DNA of 64,000 nucleotides from Falsiroseomonas tokyonensis. Its GTDB lineage: Bacteria; Pseudomonadota; Alphaproteobacteria; Acetobacterales; Acetobacteraceae. Location of the stretch: assembly GCF_019024325.1 (NCBI RefSeq), contig NZ_JAFNJS010000006.1, forward strand, positions 310,001 through 374,000. Reading direction: 5' to 3'. The notes under the pieces were generated by a model that saw only the letters and a program-made list of their open reading frames with translations, made no database searches and was not told the DNA's origin. Of this stretch, positions 35,844-52,026 are shown in pieces. The translations under genes and the position numbers were made by a program. Numbering within the stretch: position 1 is the stretch's first letter; each line of letters starts with the position of its first letter.

Positions 35844-36742
35844 GGGGTCGCCTTGGTACGGGTTTTCTCGGGGATCAGGCCCTGCGGCCGGAAGCGCAGC
35901 AGCAGGATGAGGCTCAGCGCGATCGCGCCCTCGCGCAGCGCCGCCTTCTGCACCGGGCTGACACCGGGGATGATGGCGGAGAGGAAGCGCGTGGATTCCA
36001 GCAGCGCGATGACGAAGAGCGCGCCGATGATCGCGCCGCGCATGGCGCCGACGCCGCCGGCGGTCAGCGCCAGAACGATGTAGATGGTCAGCAGCGGGGC
36101 GAAGCCGTCCGGCGCGATATAGGCGTTGTAATGGGCATAGAGCGCCCCTGCCCCGCCCAGCACGGCGGCGCCGATGGTGAAGGCGCGCACCTTGAACCAC
36201 AGCACCGGCTTGCCGGCGACGGCGGCGACATCCTCATCCTCCCGGATCGCGCGCAGCACGCGGCCGAAGGGGGAATGCGACAGGCGCGCCAGCAGCACGA
36301 AGACCACGGCCACCGCGGTCCAGACGATTCCGAGATAGATCAGGTTGAATTCGGGCGGCGAGACATCGCCGCGCCACGGCCCGGGGATGCCCGAGATACC
36401 GTCCGTGCCATTGGTCAGCCAGATCTCGTTCGAGGCGGTCAGGCGGATGACCTCCGCAAAGCCCAGCGTGACGATGGCCAGGTAGTCGCCGCGCAGCCGC
36501 GCCACGATCAGCGCCATGATGGCGCCGGCGGCGGCCGCCACCACCGCGCCGGCCGCCCAGCCCAGCGGCATCGGCCAGAACAGCTTCGTGGTCAGCAGCG
36601 CGGAGGCATAGGCGCCGAGGGCGAAGAAGCCGACCAGGCCGAGATTGACCATGCCGGTCAGGCCCCAGATCACGTTCAGCCCCAGCGCCATCAGCGCGTA
36701 GAAGCCGGCGAAGACCAGCATGGCGATCAGATAGGCGTCCAT
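35840..36742 (-). CDS. Branched-chain amino acid ABC transporter permease, LivM-like
   Basis: An inner-membrane permease of 300 residues with about nine to ten helices. It has the LivM hallmarks LGLNVIWGLTGMVNLGLVGFF at about 20-40 and the EAA-like loop LRAIREDEDVAAVAGKPVL near 185. It starts at 36742, sharing one base with the livH-like stop, and overlaps the GAF gene at its end. It forms the membrane pore with the LivH-like subunit. The transported ligand could be an amino acid, an amide or an aromatic acid. Confidence 0.93.
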   Translation of the reverse strand: MDAYLIAMLVFAGFYALMALGLNVIWGLTGMVNLGLVGFFALGAYASALLTTKLFWPMPLGWAAGAVVAAAAGAIMALIVARLRGDYLAIVTLGFAEVIRLTASNEIWLTNGTDGISGIPGPWRGDVSPPEFNLIYLGIVWTAVAVVFVLLARLSHSPFGRVLRAIREDEDVAAVAGKPVLWFKVRAFTIGAAVLGGAGALYAHYNAYIAPDGFAPLLTIYIVLALTAGGVGAMRGAIIGALFVIALLESTRFLSAIIPGVSPVQKAALREGAIALSLILLLRFRPQGLIPEKTRTKATP

Positions 36743-37614
36743 CAGTTGCGCCCCCCCAGGATCCCCTGCGGCCGGAACATCAGCACCAGCAGGATGGCGA
36801 GGAAGGCGGTGACAGTGCGGTAGGCGGGCGAGAGCACCAGCCCCGCCATCTCCTCGCCGACGCCGACCACCATCGCCCCCAGCGCCGCGCCGGGAATCGA
36901 GCCGAGCCCGCCGACGACAGCCGCGGCAAAGACGGAGAGCACGACGCGAAAGCCGGTCAGCGGATCGATGGAGGTATCGATGCCCACCAGCATGCCGCCG
37001 CAGCCCGCCAGCCCGCCGCCGATGAAGACCGCGACACGGGCAATGCGGTTGGGATCGACGCCCTTGATATCGGCCAGCACGGGATTGTCGGCCACCGCCC
37101 GCATGGCGCGCCCGAGCCGCGAGAAGCCCAGTAGAAGAAAAAGCCCGCCCGCGGCGACGATCGCATAGCCGGTGTTCTGCAATTGCTGCGGGTTGATGCG
37201 GATGCCGTCGAAGCGCCAGTCGCGCAGGATCGGCAGGTCGTAGCCGCGCAGGTCATTGCCGAAGCTGAACCGCAGGATGTTCTCGATCAGCAGCGTCATG
37301 GCGACGGAGGCGATGGCCACCGTCAGCGGCCCCGCCGGGCGCAGCGGGCGGAAGGCGGCCTCCTCCGCCAGCAGGGCGACCAGCCCCGCCACCAGGAAGG
37401 CCAGCGGCAGGGCGAGCCCCACCGGCCAGCCATAGACCGCATTCGCCACCCAGCCGGCAAAGGCGCCGGTGGTGGCGAAGCCGGCGATGGCGAAGTTCGG
37501 ATAGCGCAGCACGGCAAAGATGCAGTTGAAGCCGATGGCGGGCAGCATCAGCACGCTGCCCGCCATCACGCCATTCAGCAGGACCTGCGCCAGGTCCCTC
37601 CAATCTTGAATCAT
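36742..37614 (-). CDS. Branched-chain amino acid ABC transporter permease, LivH-like
   Basis: An inner-membrane permease of 290 residues. The N-terminal region reads VLLNGVMAGSVLMLPAIGFN and FAVLRYPNFAIAGFATTGAF, a LivH-type pattern. The cytoplasmic loop GRAMRAVADNPVLADIKGVD docks on the ATPases, and FAAAVVGGLGSIPGAALGAM is near the C-terminus. The ATG at 37614 was chosen; the longer open frame runs into the hairpin-rich spacer and has no family similarity. A 127-base spacer with a four-hairpin repeat separates it from livK. Confidence 0.93.
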   Translation of the reverse strand: MIQDWRDLAQVLLNGVMAGSVLMLPAIGFNCIFAVLRYPNFAIAGFATTGAFAGWVANAVYGWPVGLALPLAFLVAGLVALLAEEAAFRPLRPAGPLTVAIASVAMTLLIENILRFSFGNDLRGYDLPILRDWRFDGIRINPQQLQNTGYAIVAAGGLFLLLGFSRLGRAMRAVADNPVLADIKGVDPNRIARVAVFIGGGLAGCGGMLVGIDTSIDPLTGFRVVLSVFAAAVVGGLGSIPGAALGAMVVGVGEEMAGLVLSPAYRTVTAFLAILLVLMFRPQGILGGRN

Positions 37615-37628
37615 AGCGGTGCTCTCAA

Positions 37629-37724
37629 GCGCCGGGCGGCCGCTCCGCGGCCTTGGCTGCGCGGCACGGGCCGCGGCGGCCGTTCGGCCGCTCGGCCGGC
37701 GGAGATCGCCGGCCGCAGGTCGTG
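37629..37724 (-). repeat. Four-hairpin intra-operonic repeat, copy A
   Basis: Four consecutive perfect stem-loops lie between livK and livH: 37638-37643/37647-37652, 37660-37665/37670-37675, 37676-37681/37686-37691 and 37694-37701/37707-37714. Copy B at 51036-51123 has the same order of stems and the same conserved joints (GCGCCGGGC-like start, CTTGGCT, GCTCGG, GGCCGCAGGTCGT). Stems 1, 3 and 4 differ in sequence but still pair. Both copies face the same way relative to transcription. The position after a receptor gene recalls REP elements that stabilise upstream mRNA; that role is inference. Confidence 0.75.
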
Positions 37725-37741
37725 CCCGTTCGGCATAGGGC

Positions 37742-38947
37742 TCAAACGAGTTCGAGCACCCGATAGGCGCCGCCCTCGGCCACCTCGTAGCGGAACTTCG
37801 TGCCGCGGATGTCGCCGCGCTCGTCGAATTCGCAGGGGCCGGAGGCACCCTCGAAATTCACCGCGCGGCCGGCCGCGATCAGCCGCAGCCCGTCCGTGAC
37901 ATTGTCCACCTTCTCCCCATCGCCCTGGCAGATCTTGCGGACGTTGTCGCGGATGACGGTGCCCGTGGCGTCGCCGCCCTGCGCGGCGGCGAGGATCGCC
38001 ATGGTGGCGTGGTCGTGCACCTGGGCAGAATAGGGGTCGACCTCGGTGCTGCCGAAGGCGGCCTTCAGGCGGGTGAAGGCGGGGCTGTTCAGGTCCGGGC
38101 TGGGCTGGAAGGTGGTCAGGCCGTTCGTCACCTCGTTCGGCAGCGTGCCGAAGACGCTGGCCGGCGCGGCATAGGCGAAGGTGAAGCGGCGGCCGTCGAA
38201 GCCGGCGCGGTAAAGTTCGCGCAGCAGGATGGTGACGTCCGGCAGATAGCCGTTCAGCATCACCGTGTCGGAGCGCGAGCGCATGATGGTGTCCACTTCC
38301 GAGCGGAAGGCGGTCTTGTCGCGCTCATAGACCACATAGCCGGAGACGGCGCCGCCGCCGGCGCGCATCACCTCCGTCATCACATCCTGGCTGGACTGCG
38401 CGAAGGGCGATTGCGCGGCCATGTGGAAGACGCGCCTGGCGCCCTTGCCGAGCAGCCACTTCGTCGCGGTCTCGATCTGCAGGCGCGAATTGGGCTGGGT
38501 GCGGAAGATGTGGCCCTGGTGCGGCAGCAGGGTGATGCTGTCGGCGCCGGAGACGGTGAACAGCGGCACCCGGTTCTCCCAGCACAGCGGCGCCACGGCC
38601 GTGGTGACGGAGGACGCCCAGGTGCCCATCAGCGCCTGCACGCGGTCCACGTCGATCAGCTTGCGCGCGCCGCGCACGCCGGCATCGGGGTTGGTCTGGT
38701 CATCCTCGAAGGCGAGGCGAATCTGCCGGCCCTTGATGCCGCCGGCGCTGTTCGCGGCCTCCACCACGCCCTGCATGGCGCGCAGCATGGCCGGGCCATA
38801 GGGGCCGCCGGCACCGGTCAGCGGCGGCAGCGCGCCGAAGACCACCGGCGCGGTCTGCGCGAAGGCGCGGCCGCCGATGGCGAAGGTGGAGACGGCCGCG
38901 GCCGCCCCCAGCAGGGCGCCGCGGCGCCCGATTGTCGTCTGCATCAT
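37742..38947 (-). CDS. ABC transporter substrate-binding protein, LivK/Leu-Ile-Val family
   Basis: A periplasmic receptor of 401 residues. The N-terminus has a twin-arginine-like signal (TTIGRRGALLGAAAAVSTFA, cleavage near AFAQ). The mature type I periplasmic fold opens with VVFGALPPLTGAGGPYGPAM and contains GGIKGRQIRLAFEDDQTNP and VQALMGTWASSVTTAVAPL. An AAGGGAAG ribosome-binding site lies about 9 bases before the first of two adjacent ATGs (38947, 38944). It is the ligand-binding subunit of the liv-type importer. The ligand class (amino acid, amide, urea or aromatic acid) is not determined by the sequence. Confidence 0.92.
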   Translation of the reverse strand: MMQTTIGRRGALLGAAAAVSTFAIGGRAFAQTAPVVFGALPPLTGAGGPYGPAMLRAMQGVVEAANSAGGIKGRQIRLAFEDDQTNPDAGVRGARKLIDVDRVQALMGTWASSVTTAVAPLCWENRVPLFTVSGADSITLLPHQGHIFRTQPNSRLQIETATKWLLGKGARRVFHMAAQSPFAQSSQDVMTEVMRAGGGAVSGYVVYERDKTAFRSEVDTIMRSRSDTVMLNGYLPDVTILLRELYRAGFDGRRFTFAYAAPASVFGTLPNEVTNGLTTFQPSPDLNSPAFTRLKAAFGSTEVDPYSAQVHDHATMAILAAAQGGDATGTVIRDNVRKICQGDGEKVDNVTDGLRLIAAGRAVNFEGASGPCEFDERGDIRGTKFRYEVAEGGAYRVLELV

Positions 38948-48837: not shown

Positions 48838-49803
48838 TCAGTTCGCGGTCACGCCGGCGGCGCGGATCAGCTCGCTCCAGCGCGAGACCTCGCTGCGGAT
48901 CAGCTGGCCGAAGGCTTCCGGCGTCATCGGCAGCGGCTCCGCGCCATCCTGCCGCAGCCGGGCGGAGACATCGGCCGTGTTCAGGCTGGCATTGATCTCG
49001 GTGTTCAGCCGGGCGATCACCGCCGGCGGCGTGCCGGTCGGCGCGGCGATGCCGTACCAGGGCACCGCATCGAAGCCCGGCGCCACCGTCTCCGCCGCCG
49101 TCGGCAGCTCCGGCAGGCTCGGGACCCGCTGGGCGGAGGAGACTCCGAGCGCCCGTAGCAGGCCCTGGCGCGCCAGCGGCATGACGGTGGGGGCGCCGCC
49201 CCAGGTCAGGTCCACATGTCCCGCCACCAGGTCGTTCAGCGCCGGGCCGAGGCCGCGATAGGGCACATGCTCCATGTCCAGCTTCGTCGCATGCAGGAAG
49301 GCCAGCATCACCGTATGGCCCGCGCTGCCATTGCCGGCGGTGCAGTATCGCAGGCGTCCGGGATTGGCCTTGGCAAAGGCCACCAGGCTCGGCAGGTCCT
49401 GGTAGGGACGCTGGGGATTCACCACCAGGACATTCGGCGTGGTGGCGATCATCGCCACCGGGGCGAAATCCCGCACCGGGCTGTAGGTGAGGTTCGGATA
49501 CATGGCGACATTCACCGCCAGCGTGCCGATATGGCCCAGCAGCAGCGTATAGCCATCGGGCGCGGAGCGGGCCACGGCCTCGGAGCCGATGGTGCCACCG
49601 GCGCCGCCGCGATTCTCCACCACCACGGCCTGGCCGAGGCGGGGCGAGAGCTGGTCGGCCATGGCGCGGCCCAGCGTGTCATTCGCCGCCCCCGGCGGGA
49701 AGGGCACGACCAGGCGGATCGGACGGCTGGGCCAGGCGCCCTGGGCCAAAGCGGGGCTGGCGAGCGTGGCCGCGGTGGCGGCCAGCAGGTGTCGGCGCTT
49801 CAT
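48838..49803 (-). CDS. Bug family tripartite tricarboxylate transporter substrate-binding protein (4 of 4)
   Basis: A periplasmic receptor of 321 residues with signal peptide MKRRHLLAATAATLASPALA. The Bug signature is WPSRPIRLVVPFPPGAANDT, with ENRGGAGGTIGSEAVARSAP and the C-terminal SRWSELIRAAGVTAN. The ATG at 49803 overlaps the stop of the CoA-transferase gene by four bases, so it belongs to the hydratase/CoA-transferase/lyase operon. A C4-C5 dicarboxylate ligand (itaconate, mesaconate or citramalate) is inferred from that operon. Confidence 0.93.
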   Translation of the reverse strand: MKRRHLLAATAATLASPALAQGAWPSRPIRLVVPFPPGAANDTLGRAMADQLSPRLGQAVVVENRGGAGGTIGSEAVARSAPDGYTLLLGHIGTLAVNVAMYPNLTYSPVRDFAPVAMIATTPNVLVVNPQRPYQDLPSLVAFAKANPGRLRYCTAGNGSAGHTVMLAFLHATKLDMEHVPYRGLGPALNDLVAGHVDLTWGGAPTVMPLARQGLLRALGVSSAQRVPSLPELPTAAETVAPGFDAVPWYGIAAPTGTPPAVIARLNTEINASLNTADVSARLRQDGAEPLPMTPEAFGQLIRSEVSRWSELIRAAGVTAN

Positions 49804-50996
49804 GCCGCGTCCCCCATCAGCCGCGCGCGGTCCTCGGCGCCATAGCCGATTTCGGCGAGAATCTCGGCAGTCTGCGCGCCCTGGCGTGGCGCGCGGCGCG
49901 ATTCCGGCAGGCCGGAGCCCGCGAAGCGATTGGCGTGTCGCAATCCCAGCATGTGTTCCTCCCCTTCTTCTTGTGTGAGCACGCCGGAGCCGCGCAGCTG
50001 CGGATCCTCCAGCAGGGTTTCGAGCCGATGATAGGGCATGGCCGGCACGTCGTGGCGGCGCAGCAGTTCCACCCATTCCGCCGTGGTCTTCGCGCGCAAG
50101 GATTCGGCGCGCAGCGCAAAATACTCGGCGACATTGGCCAGCCGCGCGGAGACGTTGCGGAAGCGCGGATCCTCCATCAGCTCCGGCCGGCCGATCGCCG
50201 TGAAGAAGCCGCGCGCCTGCGGGTCCGTATTGGCGGAGACGCAGATATAGCCGTCCTTCGTCGGCATCGGCCGCGCATCGGGCGTCATGATGCGCGGATC
50301 GCCGAAACTGCCCTGCGGGTCGAAGGTGCGCTGGCCGAGATGTTCGGAGAGCACGAAGGCCGCCGCATTCTCGAACATCGGCACCTCGATCGCCTGGCCC
50401 TCGCCCGTGCTGGCGCGGGCCACCAGTGCGGCGCAGATCGCCTGGGCGGCGATGATGCCGACGATATGGTCCGTGAGGACAAAGGGCGCAAAACGTGGCT
50501 CGCCCAGCACCGTCTCCAGGCAGGCGGCGACGCCGGACAGGCCCTGGATGATGGTGTCGTAGGCCGGTGCGCCGTCATAGGGGCCGCCCGTCGCGAAGCC
50601 CGCGATGGTGCAATGGACCATGCGGGGATTCAGCGCCAGCAGCGCCTCTGCCGTCAGGCCGAGGGCCTTCAGGGCGCGCGGCCGCATATTGCTGACGAAG
50701 ACATCGCTCGTCTCCGCCAGGCGCTGGATCACCTCCCGCCCCTCCTCGGATTTCAGGTCCAGAACGATGGACCGCTTGTTGCGGTTGAAGTGCATGAACT
50801 TGGGCGACATGCCCGGCGCATCGGCCGGCGCCTTGCCGCCCAGCTTGCGCATCAGGTCGCCCTCCGGCGGCTCCACCTTGATGACATCGGCGCCCTGCTC
50901 GGCCAGCAGCAGAGTCGACATCGGGCCGACGATGACGCCGGTGCAGTCCAGCACGCGGATGCCGGCGAGCGGCCCGCGCTTCGAGGTGTCGCTCAT
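49800..50996 (-). CDS. Class III CoA-transferase (CaiB/BaiF family)
   Basis: A 398-residue CoA-transferase. It begins PLAGIRVLDCTGVIVGPMST, contains IKVEPPEGDLMRKLGG, and has the catalytic Asp in GAPAYDTIIQGLSGVAACLE. FNRNKRSIVLDLKSEEG and the TDHIVGIIAAQAICAAL helix are standard. The family moves CoA from succinyl-CoA, acetyl-CoA or another donor to a carboxylate. In this cluster it would activate the dicarboxylate taken up through the Bug receptor. It lies downstream of the hydratase gene, across a spacer with a hairpin and the second four-hairpin repeat. Confidence 0.93.
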   Translation of the reverse strand: MSDTSKRGPLAGIRVLDCTGVIVGPMSTLLLAEQGADVIKVEPPEGDLMRKLGGKAPADAPGMSPKFMHFNRNKRSIVLDLKSEEGREVIQRLAETSDVFVSNMRPRALKALGLTAEALLALNPRMVHCTIAGFATGGPYDGAPAYDTIIQGLSGVAACLETVLGEPRFAPFVLTDHIVGIIAAQAICAALVARASTGEGQAIEVPMFENAAAFVLSEHLGQRTFDPQGSFGDPRIMTPDARPMPTKDGYICVSANTDPQARGFFTAIGRPELMEDPRFRNVSARLANVAEYFALRAESLRAKTTAEWVELLRRHDVPAMPYHRLETLLEDPQLRGSGVLTQEEGEEHMLGLRHANRFAGSGLPESRRAPRQGAQTAEILAEIGYGAEDRARLMGDAA

Positions 50997-51003
50997 AGCC
51001 GGC

Positions 51004-51026
51004 GCACGAAGGTTTCACCTTCGTGC
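51004..51026 (-). promoter_or_regulatory. Hairpin just upstream of the CoA-transferase start
   Basis: A perfect 10-bp stem (51004-51013 with 51017-51026) with a 3-base loop ends 7 bases before the start codon. On the mRNA it contains the only purine-rich GAAGGT-type stretch near the start, so it could limit ribosome loading. It is not followed by a T-run and is unlikely to terminate transcription. Confidence 0.45.
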
Positions 51027-51035
51027 CCCTCAGAC

Positions 51036-51123
51036 GCCGGGCGCCGCGCATCCGCGCGGCTTGGCTTCGCGGCACTTGCCGCGGCGCGCATTCGCGCGCT
51101 CGGCCCTTCGGGCCGCAGGTCGT
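51036..51123 (-). repeat. Four-hairpin intra-operonic repeat, copy B
   Basis: Stems are 51043-51049/51054-51060, 51068-51073/51078-51083, 51084-51089/51094-51099 and 51102-51106/51110-51114. Stem 2 is identical to copy A (CGCGGC with GCCGCG). Stems 1, 3 and 4 have other sequences yet pair perfectly, which points to selection on the fold. It lies between the hydratase and CoA-transferase genes in the same orientation to transcription as copy A at 37629. Confidence 0.75.
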
Positions 51124-51141
51124 AGCGTCGAGCTTTCGGTT

Positions 51142-52026
51142 TCACACCATCTCGCCCGGCTCGGCGGCGGCTTCGGCCTGGGCCACGATCTTGCCCTGCT
51201 CGTTCAGCGCCCAGAGGCGCAGCGAGCCGTCCTCCTCCCGCTTGCAGCGCAGCTCGCCCACGCGGTTGACGAAGAAGGGATTCACGTTGCGCACCGAGAA
51301 GCAGCCGAGCCTGCCGCCGGGCAGGTTGCGCCGCGCCATCTCATGCAGGAACAGCGCATGCAGCCCGCCATTCACGACCAGGCCGGGATAGCCTTCCTCC
51401 TGCGTCGTATAGGGCTGGTCGTAATGGATGCGGTGGCCGTTATAGGTCAGCGCGGAATAGCGGAAGAGATGTGTCGTCTCCGGCGCATAGACCTGGGTTT
51501 CGTCCGGCGCGGGCAGTTCCACGGGCGCCTCGGCCTTGGGCGGCGCGCCGGCGCCGGGCTTGGCTTCCTCGCGATAGACGATGTCCTGCACCTCGGTCAG
51601 CACCGGCTTGCCGTCCATCTCCACCACATGGTCGACCCGGACAAAGATCATCTCCCCCGTGCGGCCGGTCTTCGGCGTGATGGCGCCTATGGTGGAGGTG
51701 CGGCGGATCTCCGCGCCGATGGTGATTGGCACCAGGTAGCGCAGCCGGCGGCCGGCGAACATGCGGCGCGGCAGCGGGACCGGCGGCAGGAAATCGCCCT
51801 TCTTCGGATGGCCGTCCGGGCCGAGCTGCGACTGCCGCGCGATGGGCGCGAAGAAGACGGAATGCCAGCCCTCCGGCAGCGCATCGCCGCGGCGGTAGGC
51901 CAGCGGGTCCTGGTCCAGCAGCGCGGCCATGCGGCGGATGATGGGCAGCGCCACCTCATCCTCCAGCACTTCCTGGCGGCCGATCCAGCCGGCCATGCCG
52001 CCGGCATCCATCTGCGTATCGGGCAT
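51142..52026 (-). CDS. MaoC-like/FAS1-like dehydratase (itaconyl- or mesaconyl-CoA hydratase candidate)
   Basis: A double hot-dog protein of 294 residues. The N-terminal part contains PEGWHSVFFAPIARQSQLGP and GDFLPPVPLPRRMFAGRRLR, typical of the FAS1-like dehydratase group that includes mesaconyl-C4-CoA hydratase. The C-terminal hot-dog contains RYSALTYNGHRIHYDQPYTT, the hydratase-2 motif with catalytic His/Asp-type residues, and YPGLVVNGGLHALFLHEMAR. A GGAGGAAG ribosome-binding site precedes the ATG at 52026. It opens the cluster and is divergent from a LysR gene. Hydration of an unsaturated dicarboxyl-CoA to citramalyl-CoA is inferred from the CoA-transferase and CitE-type neighbours. Confidence 0.87.
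   Translation of the reverse strand: MPDTQMDAGGMAGWIGRQEVLEDEVALPIIRRMAALLDQDPLAYRRGDALPEGWHSVFFAPIARQSQLGPDGHPKKGDFLPPVPLPRRMFAGRRLRYLVPITIGAEIRRTSTIGAITPKTGRTGEMIFVRVDHVVEMDGKPVLTEVQDIVYREEAKPGAGAPPKAEAPVELPAPDETQVYAPETTHLFRYSALTYNGHRIHYDQPYTTQEEGYPGLVVNGGLHALFLHEMARRNLPGGRLGCFSVRNVNPFFVNRVGELRCKREEDGSLRLWALNEQGKIVAQAEAAAEPGEMV

Follow-up and report, generated by a model that had tools for sequence, protein, structure and literature searches.

Two kinds of short bacterial repeats are among the known systems closest to the element described here. Bacterial MITEs (PMC10969869) are short and non-coding, occur in many copies and in both orientations, and are bounded by inverted ends and a short target duplication. 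REPs, as presented in another source (PMC3733652), are 20-40 bp long with a GTAG or CGTC foot, and the tagged REP/BIME repeats are palindromic and form many copies with heterogeneous stems; REP families occur in Alphaproteobacteria, and that source gives CGTC repeats as absent from Acetobacteraceae. The window analysed here, a 64,000-nucleotide stretch of the Falsiroseomonas tokyonensis genome, contains two blocks, each of which is probably a copy of a short, non-coding and mobile piece of DNA whose family is spread through the Alphaproteobacteria. We read the element as class-wide, non-autonomous, MITE-like and palindromic. It has the MITE traits listed above, except that inverted ends are clear in some of its copies only, and differs in its four internal hairpins, its conserved joints and arms that covary across the class. 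While the element is MITE-like in behaviour, a MITE by descent it is not proven to be, because no parent insertion sequence was found.

The first copy occupies positions 37614-37741 on the + strand (128 bp), with a core, as matched by the covariance model, at 37622-37726; its limits are based on the model and on empty sites in relatives. It is flanked by genes on the - strand for a branched-chain permease (BPD_transp_2, 36742-37614) and a periplasmic binding protein (Peripla_BP_6, 37742-38944), in the gap for which a sequence-only reading had used the labels livK and livH. The second copy, likewise on the + strand, extends over 50996-51141 (146 bp; core 51027-51126) between a CoA-transferase III gene (49800-50996) and, from 51142 on, a gene that has a dehydratase region of FAS1 type, both on the - strand. 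The blocks as originally delimited (37629-37724 and 51036-51123) comprise the core only, whereas the whole elements were delimited against empty sites. Both copies have one shared orientation relative to transcription, as had been noticed at the outset; it is antisense to the flanking genes. The four consecutive stem-loops reported from the letters are also evident in the alignment, in the same order and with shared joints. In copy 1 they are found at 37638-37652 (GGCCGC-TCC-GCGGCC), 37660-37675 (CGCGGC-ACGG-GCCGCG), 37676-37691 (GCGGCC-GTTC-GGCCGC) and 37694-37714 (GGCCGGCG-GAGAT-CGCCGGCC), and in copy 2 at 51043-51060 (GCCGCGC-ATCC-GCGCGGC), 51068-51083 (CGCGGC-ACTT-GCCGCG), 51084-51099 (GCGCGC-ATTC-GCGCGC) and 51102-51114 (GGCCC-TTC-GGGCC), all on the + strand. 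Stems 1, 3 and 4 thus differ between the copies and still pair; stem 2, described as identical, is so in its arms (CGCGGC/GCCGCG) but not in its loop (ACGG against ACTT). Near its left end, 5′ of the core, copy 2 carries a fifth hairpin, designated hairpin 0, at 51004-51026 on the + strand (GCACGAAGG-TTTCA-CCTTCGTGC).

The resemblance of the two blocks is not due to chance, as evidenced by the covariation described below and by the occurrence of the element at 41 or more places in the genome of 6.16 Mb. An alignment by MAFFT of nine copies, the two window blocks and seven others from the same genome found by a joint-plus-stem pattern, reveals a shared skeleton that begins with CCCTCA(R)ACGCCGGGC, stem 1, the joint TTGGCT and stem 2 (loop ACNN or ATNN), and continues with stem 3 (loop mostly NTTC), the joint TC, stem 4 and GCAGGTC. 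The first covariance model was built from these nine copies, and the genome count obtained with it (E ≤ 1; weakest match 0.008) is a lower bound because only 150 of the 13,763 candidates were scored. The 15-base joint-plus-stem motif alone, allowing up to three mismatches, is not found above chance in the window (21 matches against 23.2 expected), and the reality of the element rests on its structure and on the copies elsewhere, not on this motif. Tandem arrays of the element were also found, and over a stretch of 120 nt copy 2 shares 96% identity with a further copy in the same genome. The family had been called unrecognised and is indeed a real repeat family without an Rfam match: none was obtained in the window at the gathering score, and the three matches in six further loci at E ≤ 0.5 do not fall on the element. 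No paper recognisable as describing the family was found in the literature, in which subscription journals were thinly covered. A subfamily with a longer stem 2 is represented by L031, L032, L035 and L078; the roughly 30 nt inserted there include GTGCAC/CTGCAC and extend to near GTCTGGGCGCG. L262 and L270 have similar inserts as judged by eye. Directly to the left of the cores in L026, L050, L098, L105 and L276 lies the palindrome TACCAACGG...CGTTGGTA or a near-identical one, which may be a second small element; the companion palindrome ACCAACGG...CGTTGGTA has one exact pattern match in this genome.

That the element is mobile is indicated by a comparison with relatives, in some of which the gene junction occupied by each window copy lacks the element and carries only one TCA. 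The copy-1 junction is empty with one continuous TCA in seven of the 14 relatives (G003, G004, G005, G006, G012, G013 and G014) and filled in G001, G002, G009 and G010, while G007 and G008 have other short gaps without the element and no such junction was found in G011. The copy-2 junction was located in five relatives, all five without the element; in two of them, G001 and G002, the sequence runs on through one TCA, and the flanking gene differs in length by 3 nt. Around each window copy, in contrast, the TCA is doubled. The left triplet of copy 1 (37611-37613) overlaps the permease start codon, which reads CAT on this strand, and the right one (37742-37744) is the stop codon of the binding-protein gene; for copy 2, the left triplet (50993-50995) overlaps the CoA-transferase start codon and the right one (51142-51144) is the stop codon of the adjoining gene, all four codons lying on the - strand. 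Since the empty junctions carry a single TCA and the filled ones two, the lengths of the inserted elements are 128 and 146 bp. We infer that the empty junctions represent the older condition. Coding constraint alone would suffice to keep TCA on both sides at stop/start overlaps, which counts against mobility; in favour of it, L059 and L025 each have one triplet of the pair that is no codon of a neighbouring gene.

Similar triplets are seen around other copies. Among 182 copies, TNA peaks 15 nt to the right of the core, where it is present in 35 (mean 6.2 per offset) and missing from 147, with lesser right-hand peaks at -5 (21 copies), +3 (19) and -7 (18); on the left side, the peaks lie 31 nt (21 copies) and 8-13 nt (13-17 copies each) before the core. 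The triplets on the two sides are equal in 26 of the 35 copies, compared to a random mean of 10.9 and a maximum of 18 in 1000 draws, the left offsets having been picked after the peaks were seen and the loop of hairpin 0 adding a few TCA matches, as it does in the random draws. Just inside equal triplets, the ends TACC...GGTA were detected in L059 and L068 by an automatic search and in L062, L064, L235 and L310 by eye. Terminal inverted repeats are weak or absent in many copies, and copy 1 lacks clear inverted ends. Over 216 copies, the automatic search gave equal triplets with five or six of six inverted bases in 15 cases against 3.3 expected, a modest excess from a procedure blind to right ends within the model match, such as those of L062 and L064. 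The triplet peaks, the inverted ends, the close relative of copy 2 and the tandem arrays all count for mobility, and the 147 copies without TNA at +15, the lesser right-hand peaks, the modest end excess and the lack of clear inverted ends in copy 1 count against it.

Another point against mobility is that no autonomous element with such ends was found among the loci searched. The 15 largest clusters among 708 predicted proteins from 193 loci beside copies include no transposase and correspond to unremarkable families such as ABC transporters, receptors and dehydrogenases. One transposase family, PF13586, was searched for and has 43 matches in 12 of the 15 genus genomes, and no TACC...GGTA ends were observed at the 30 of these 43 loci that were examined, several of which end at contig ends. 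IS5-type insertion sequences of the IS1031 group produce a 3-bp TNA duplication, as the element appears to do. In the genus, a DDE_Tnp_1_2 locus (L447, about 1448-2398) contains a 945-bp segment with 14-bp inverted ends, 13 positions of which match, and a TTA duplication; the ends of the segment (GAGCCCATCC...) are unlike the TACC...GGTA of the element. The 3-bp duplication of the element also bears on a second explanation, in which a RAYT (Y1 transposase) moves a repeat of REP/BIME type, since such a duplication is at odds with Y1 chemistry. The high copy number, the palindromes with heterogeneous stems, the placement at gene ends with few divergent gaps and the tandem arrays would all suit such a repeat, as would the presence of REP families in Alphaproteobacteria according to PMC3733652. 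However, Y1_Tnp (RAYT-type) matches were obtained in none of the 15 genus genomes and in five of the 14 control genomes, and the element, at 128-146 bp with four or five hairpins and no GTAG or CGTC foot, departs from the 20-40 bp REPs described in that source. For this genus, the RAYT explanation is therefore largely refuted, and we consider it very improbable overall.

The placement of the copies relative to genes also favours a mobile element. The sequence-only reading had regarded an mRNA-stabilising or attenuating role inside operons as plausible, and a structured RNA element in mRNAs, acting as a stabiliser, an attenuator or a translational regulator, has to be weighed accordingly. The at least 41 copies in this genome, however, occur in both orientations and in convergent gaps (10 ++, 11 convergent, 20 -- and none divergent), with gene orientation taken from our own hexamer gene caller, for which 27 open frames from the window were the training set. 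This goes half-way towards the outcome that the sequence-only reading had named as its own refutation. A set of 132 classified copies, which includes tandem, orthologous and a few distant ones, has 31 ++, 45 convergent, 50 -- and five divergent, plus one inside a doubtful frame. Both orientations with many convergent and few divergent gaps speak for mobility and against an RNA, as does the absence of both window copies from the same junctions, there with a single TCA, in several relatives. The ratio of convergent to divergent copies is 45:5 (p = 4e-9), while the gene pairs of the window itself are seven convergent, seven divergent and 42 tandem, 16 of which touch or overlap. The scarcity of divergent copies can be attributed to insertion at gene ends, but the convergent copies exceed what the count of gene ends would give (45 against 81 tandem, p = 0.007), which counts against the mobile reading. 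An orientation bias (31 ++ against 50 --) gave p = 0.045 with the tandem and orthologous copies included and p = 0.10 for this genome alone, and no claim is made from it. At the two window copies, neither a site like a Rho-independent terminator (a GC-rich hairpin followed by a T run) nor a promoter-like one was found. Separately, L075 (1501-1587) and L212 (1501-1600) contain an orthologous pair of copies that immediately follow a tRNA-Leu gene and share its direction.

A translational role could be suggested by the CCCTCA end, which in 17 of the 132 copies is followed, on the opposite strand, by a start codon at a distance of 6-10 nt, 16 of these starts being ATG and 14 of the motifs an exact TGAGGG. 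In copy 1, TGAGAG is located seven nt before the ATG; in copy 2, hairpin 0 intervenes and no Shine-Dalgarno-like motif is apparent by eye within 13 nt of the start. CCCTCA is kept in 14 of the 17 possible Shine-Dalgarno positions and in 63 of 76 positions beside stop codons, and these counts do not support a Shine-Dalgarno function under selection; as the motif is no better kept before starts, we take it as a by-product that makes the insertion tolerable. Antisense to an operon, the CCCTCA end would read as the Shine-Dalgarno-like TGAGGG and, together with the doubled TCA, would let overlapping genes survive an insertion between them. With its many copies, the element offers natural experiments on the tolerance of operons for insertions between overlapping genes.

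The most interesting part of the finding is the covariation of the arms, which had been proposed from two copies and proves to be real and far beyond GC content. In the nine-copy alignment, standard pairs make up 97.7% of the pair cells, and changes on both sides are seen in 12 of the 32 pairs, a covariation reached in none of 500 shuffles. Among 90 distinct copies, 98.4% of cells pair, 24 of 31 pairs show double changes (502 cells) and again no shuffle of 500 is equal, although these copies were found and aligned with a covariance model and lean towards its structure; with the partners slid by one to three columns, pairing falls to 32-53%. The same is seen between orthologues: in eight groups, 67 pair cells have changed on both sides and remain Watson-Crick, while 16 have changed on one side, so that paired double changes are about four times as frequent as single ones in these 22 pairwise comparisons, which are not independent and ten of which come from copy 1. 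Of the remaining cells, six have changes on both sides and do not pair, 453 are unaltered and paired, one is unaltered and unpaired, and 29 contain gaps. Between copy 1 and its counterpart in G001 (92% identity over 3.1 kb), two neighbouring stem 1 pairs have changed on both sides and none on a single side; that stem is seen at no other locus among the 191 copies sampled.

Such strong covariation is usually read as a sign of a functional RNA, and here it is found in a mobile DNA element present in both orientations, by which RNA-finding pipelines could be misled. Its extent, also between orthologues, the GC-rich stems and the joints conserved in distant families are all in keeping with an RNA; conserved internal joints are also unusual for a plain MITE and in this respect count against mobility. 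The wobble pairs were examined in 185 copies aligned by covariance models, where 4557 stem cells outside the joint pairs comprise 4213 G-C, 189 A-T, 43 G.T, 37 A.C and 75 other mismatches. In a control of 30 TPP riboswitches aligned by mafft and RNAalifold, there are 26 G.T and 10 A.C, which differs from the 43:37 of the element at p = 0.07, and relative to A-T the G.T pairs are about equally frequent in both (26:116 and 43:189). When sets of 30 element copies were aligned by the method of the control, three such sets gave 63-68 G.T, mostly from two G.T joint pairs, and 1-8 A.C. In the -- copies, the wobble excess is on the non-transcribed strand (15 G.T and 3 A.C, p = 0.008), contrary to an RNA role, whereas helix 1 has, on its + strand, two G.T pairs that hardly vary among the 90 copies and would agree with one. 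Weakened by the TPP control, the G.U comparison was discarded as decisive evidence; it does not favour the transcribed strand and leans, only weakly and without proof, to the upkeep of the hairpins at the DNA level. Taken with the gene placement and the evenly kept CCCTCA, these results make a structured mRNA element improbable.

A further explanation concerns the arms only and is compatible with a mobile element, namely that gene conversion swaps whole hairpins between copies. The high number of copies in each genome and the recurrence of stem variants would allow this, and in 145 parsed copies the association of stem 1 with stem 2 and of stem 2 with stem 3 lies only slightly above that of every one of 300 shuffles, stems 1 and 3 being independent. 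On the other hand, the changed stems of two orthologue groups, GCACGC..GCGTGC (L165) and CCTTGGC..GCCAAGG (L206), are present at no other locus among 191 sampled copies, which counts against simple conversion, and we regard such exchange as possible but rather doubtful. The covariation could be due to a fold that is recognised, to arm-templated repair, to an exchange between copies or to a role as RNA; the roughly 4:1 ratio of double to single changes makes arm-templated repair or selection on a DNA hairpin directly testable.

The element probably inserts mostly at gene ends and in doing so duplicates a 3-bp TNA triplet (TCA, TGA or TTA), which there is a stop codon or lies within a stop/start codon overlap. 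From the TNA duplication and the TACC...GGTA ends of some copies, it would be moved by a DDE-type enzyme acting in trans, and the hairpins might be DNA structures, cruciform or single-stranded, for that enzyme, or might be kept perfect by arm-templated repair. A tentative and on balance unlikely extension would be a class-wide mobile element recognised by its DNA hairpin fold and not by its sequence, in which the arms drift in pairs, the joints stay fixed between distant families and the ends leave both genes readable at stop/start overlaps.

The family is present in all 14 same-genus relatives scanned with the covariance model, as had been suggested as a check, with 31-67 matches each among 67 candidates scored per genome. 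In a search of 59 genomes, it was detected in 15 of 15 of the genus (the genome of the window included), two of 20 from other genera of the family and three of 24 more distant ones. With a second covariance model (E ≤ 0.001), 41 of 385 alphaproteobacterial genomes match under 25 family labels, ten candidates being scored per genome and matches near the cut-off possibly being due to chance. A sample of the phylum gave matches in 15 of 398 genomes at E ≤ 0.0001, all Alphaproteobacteria, the share of the 398 outside the class not being stated. Among the matches listed, the skeleton is found in Roseomonas, Falsiroseomonas, Azospirillum, Nitrospirillum, Magnetospirillum, Erythrobacter, Sphingomonas, Qipengyuania and Terasakiella, by a pattern that itself demands the joints. 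A Sphingomonas contig with an element copy also carries a manganese riboswitch (RF00080, 65.1 bits; L312, 453-629, - strand). Phage records contained no element match at E ≤ 1e-5 and plasmid records one partial match, while 61 matching stretches are located in viral contigs. One 47.9-kb contig of the viral collection, IMGVR_UViG_2708742415_000004, has 18 skeleton matches in the stretches L381, L419 and L421, partly arranged head to tail with a 108-bp period.
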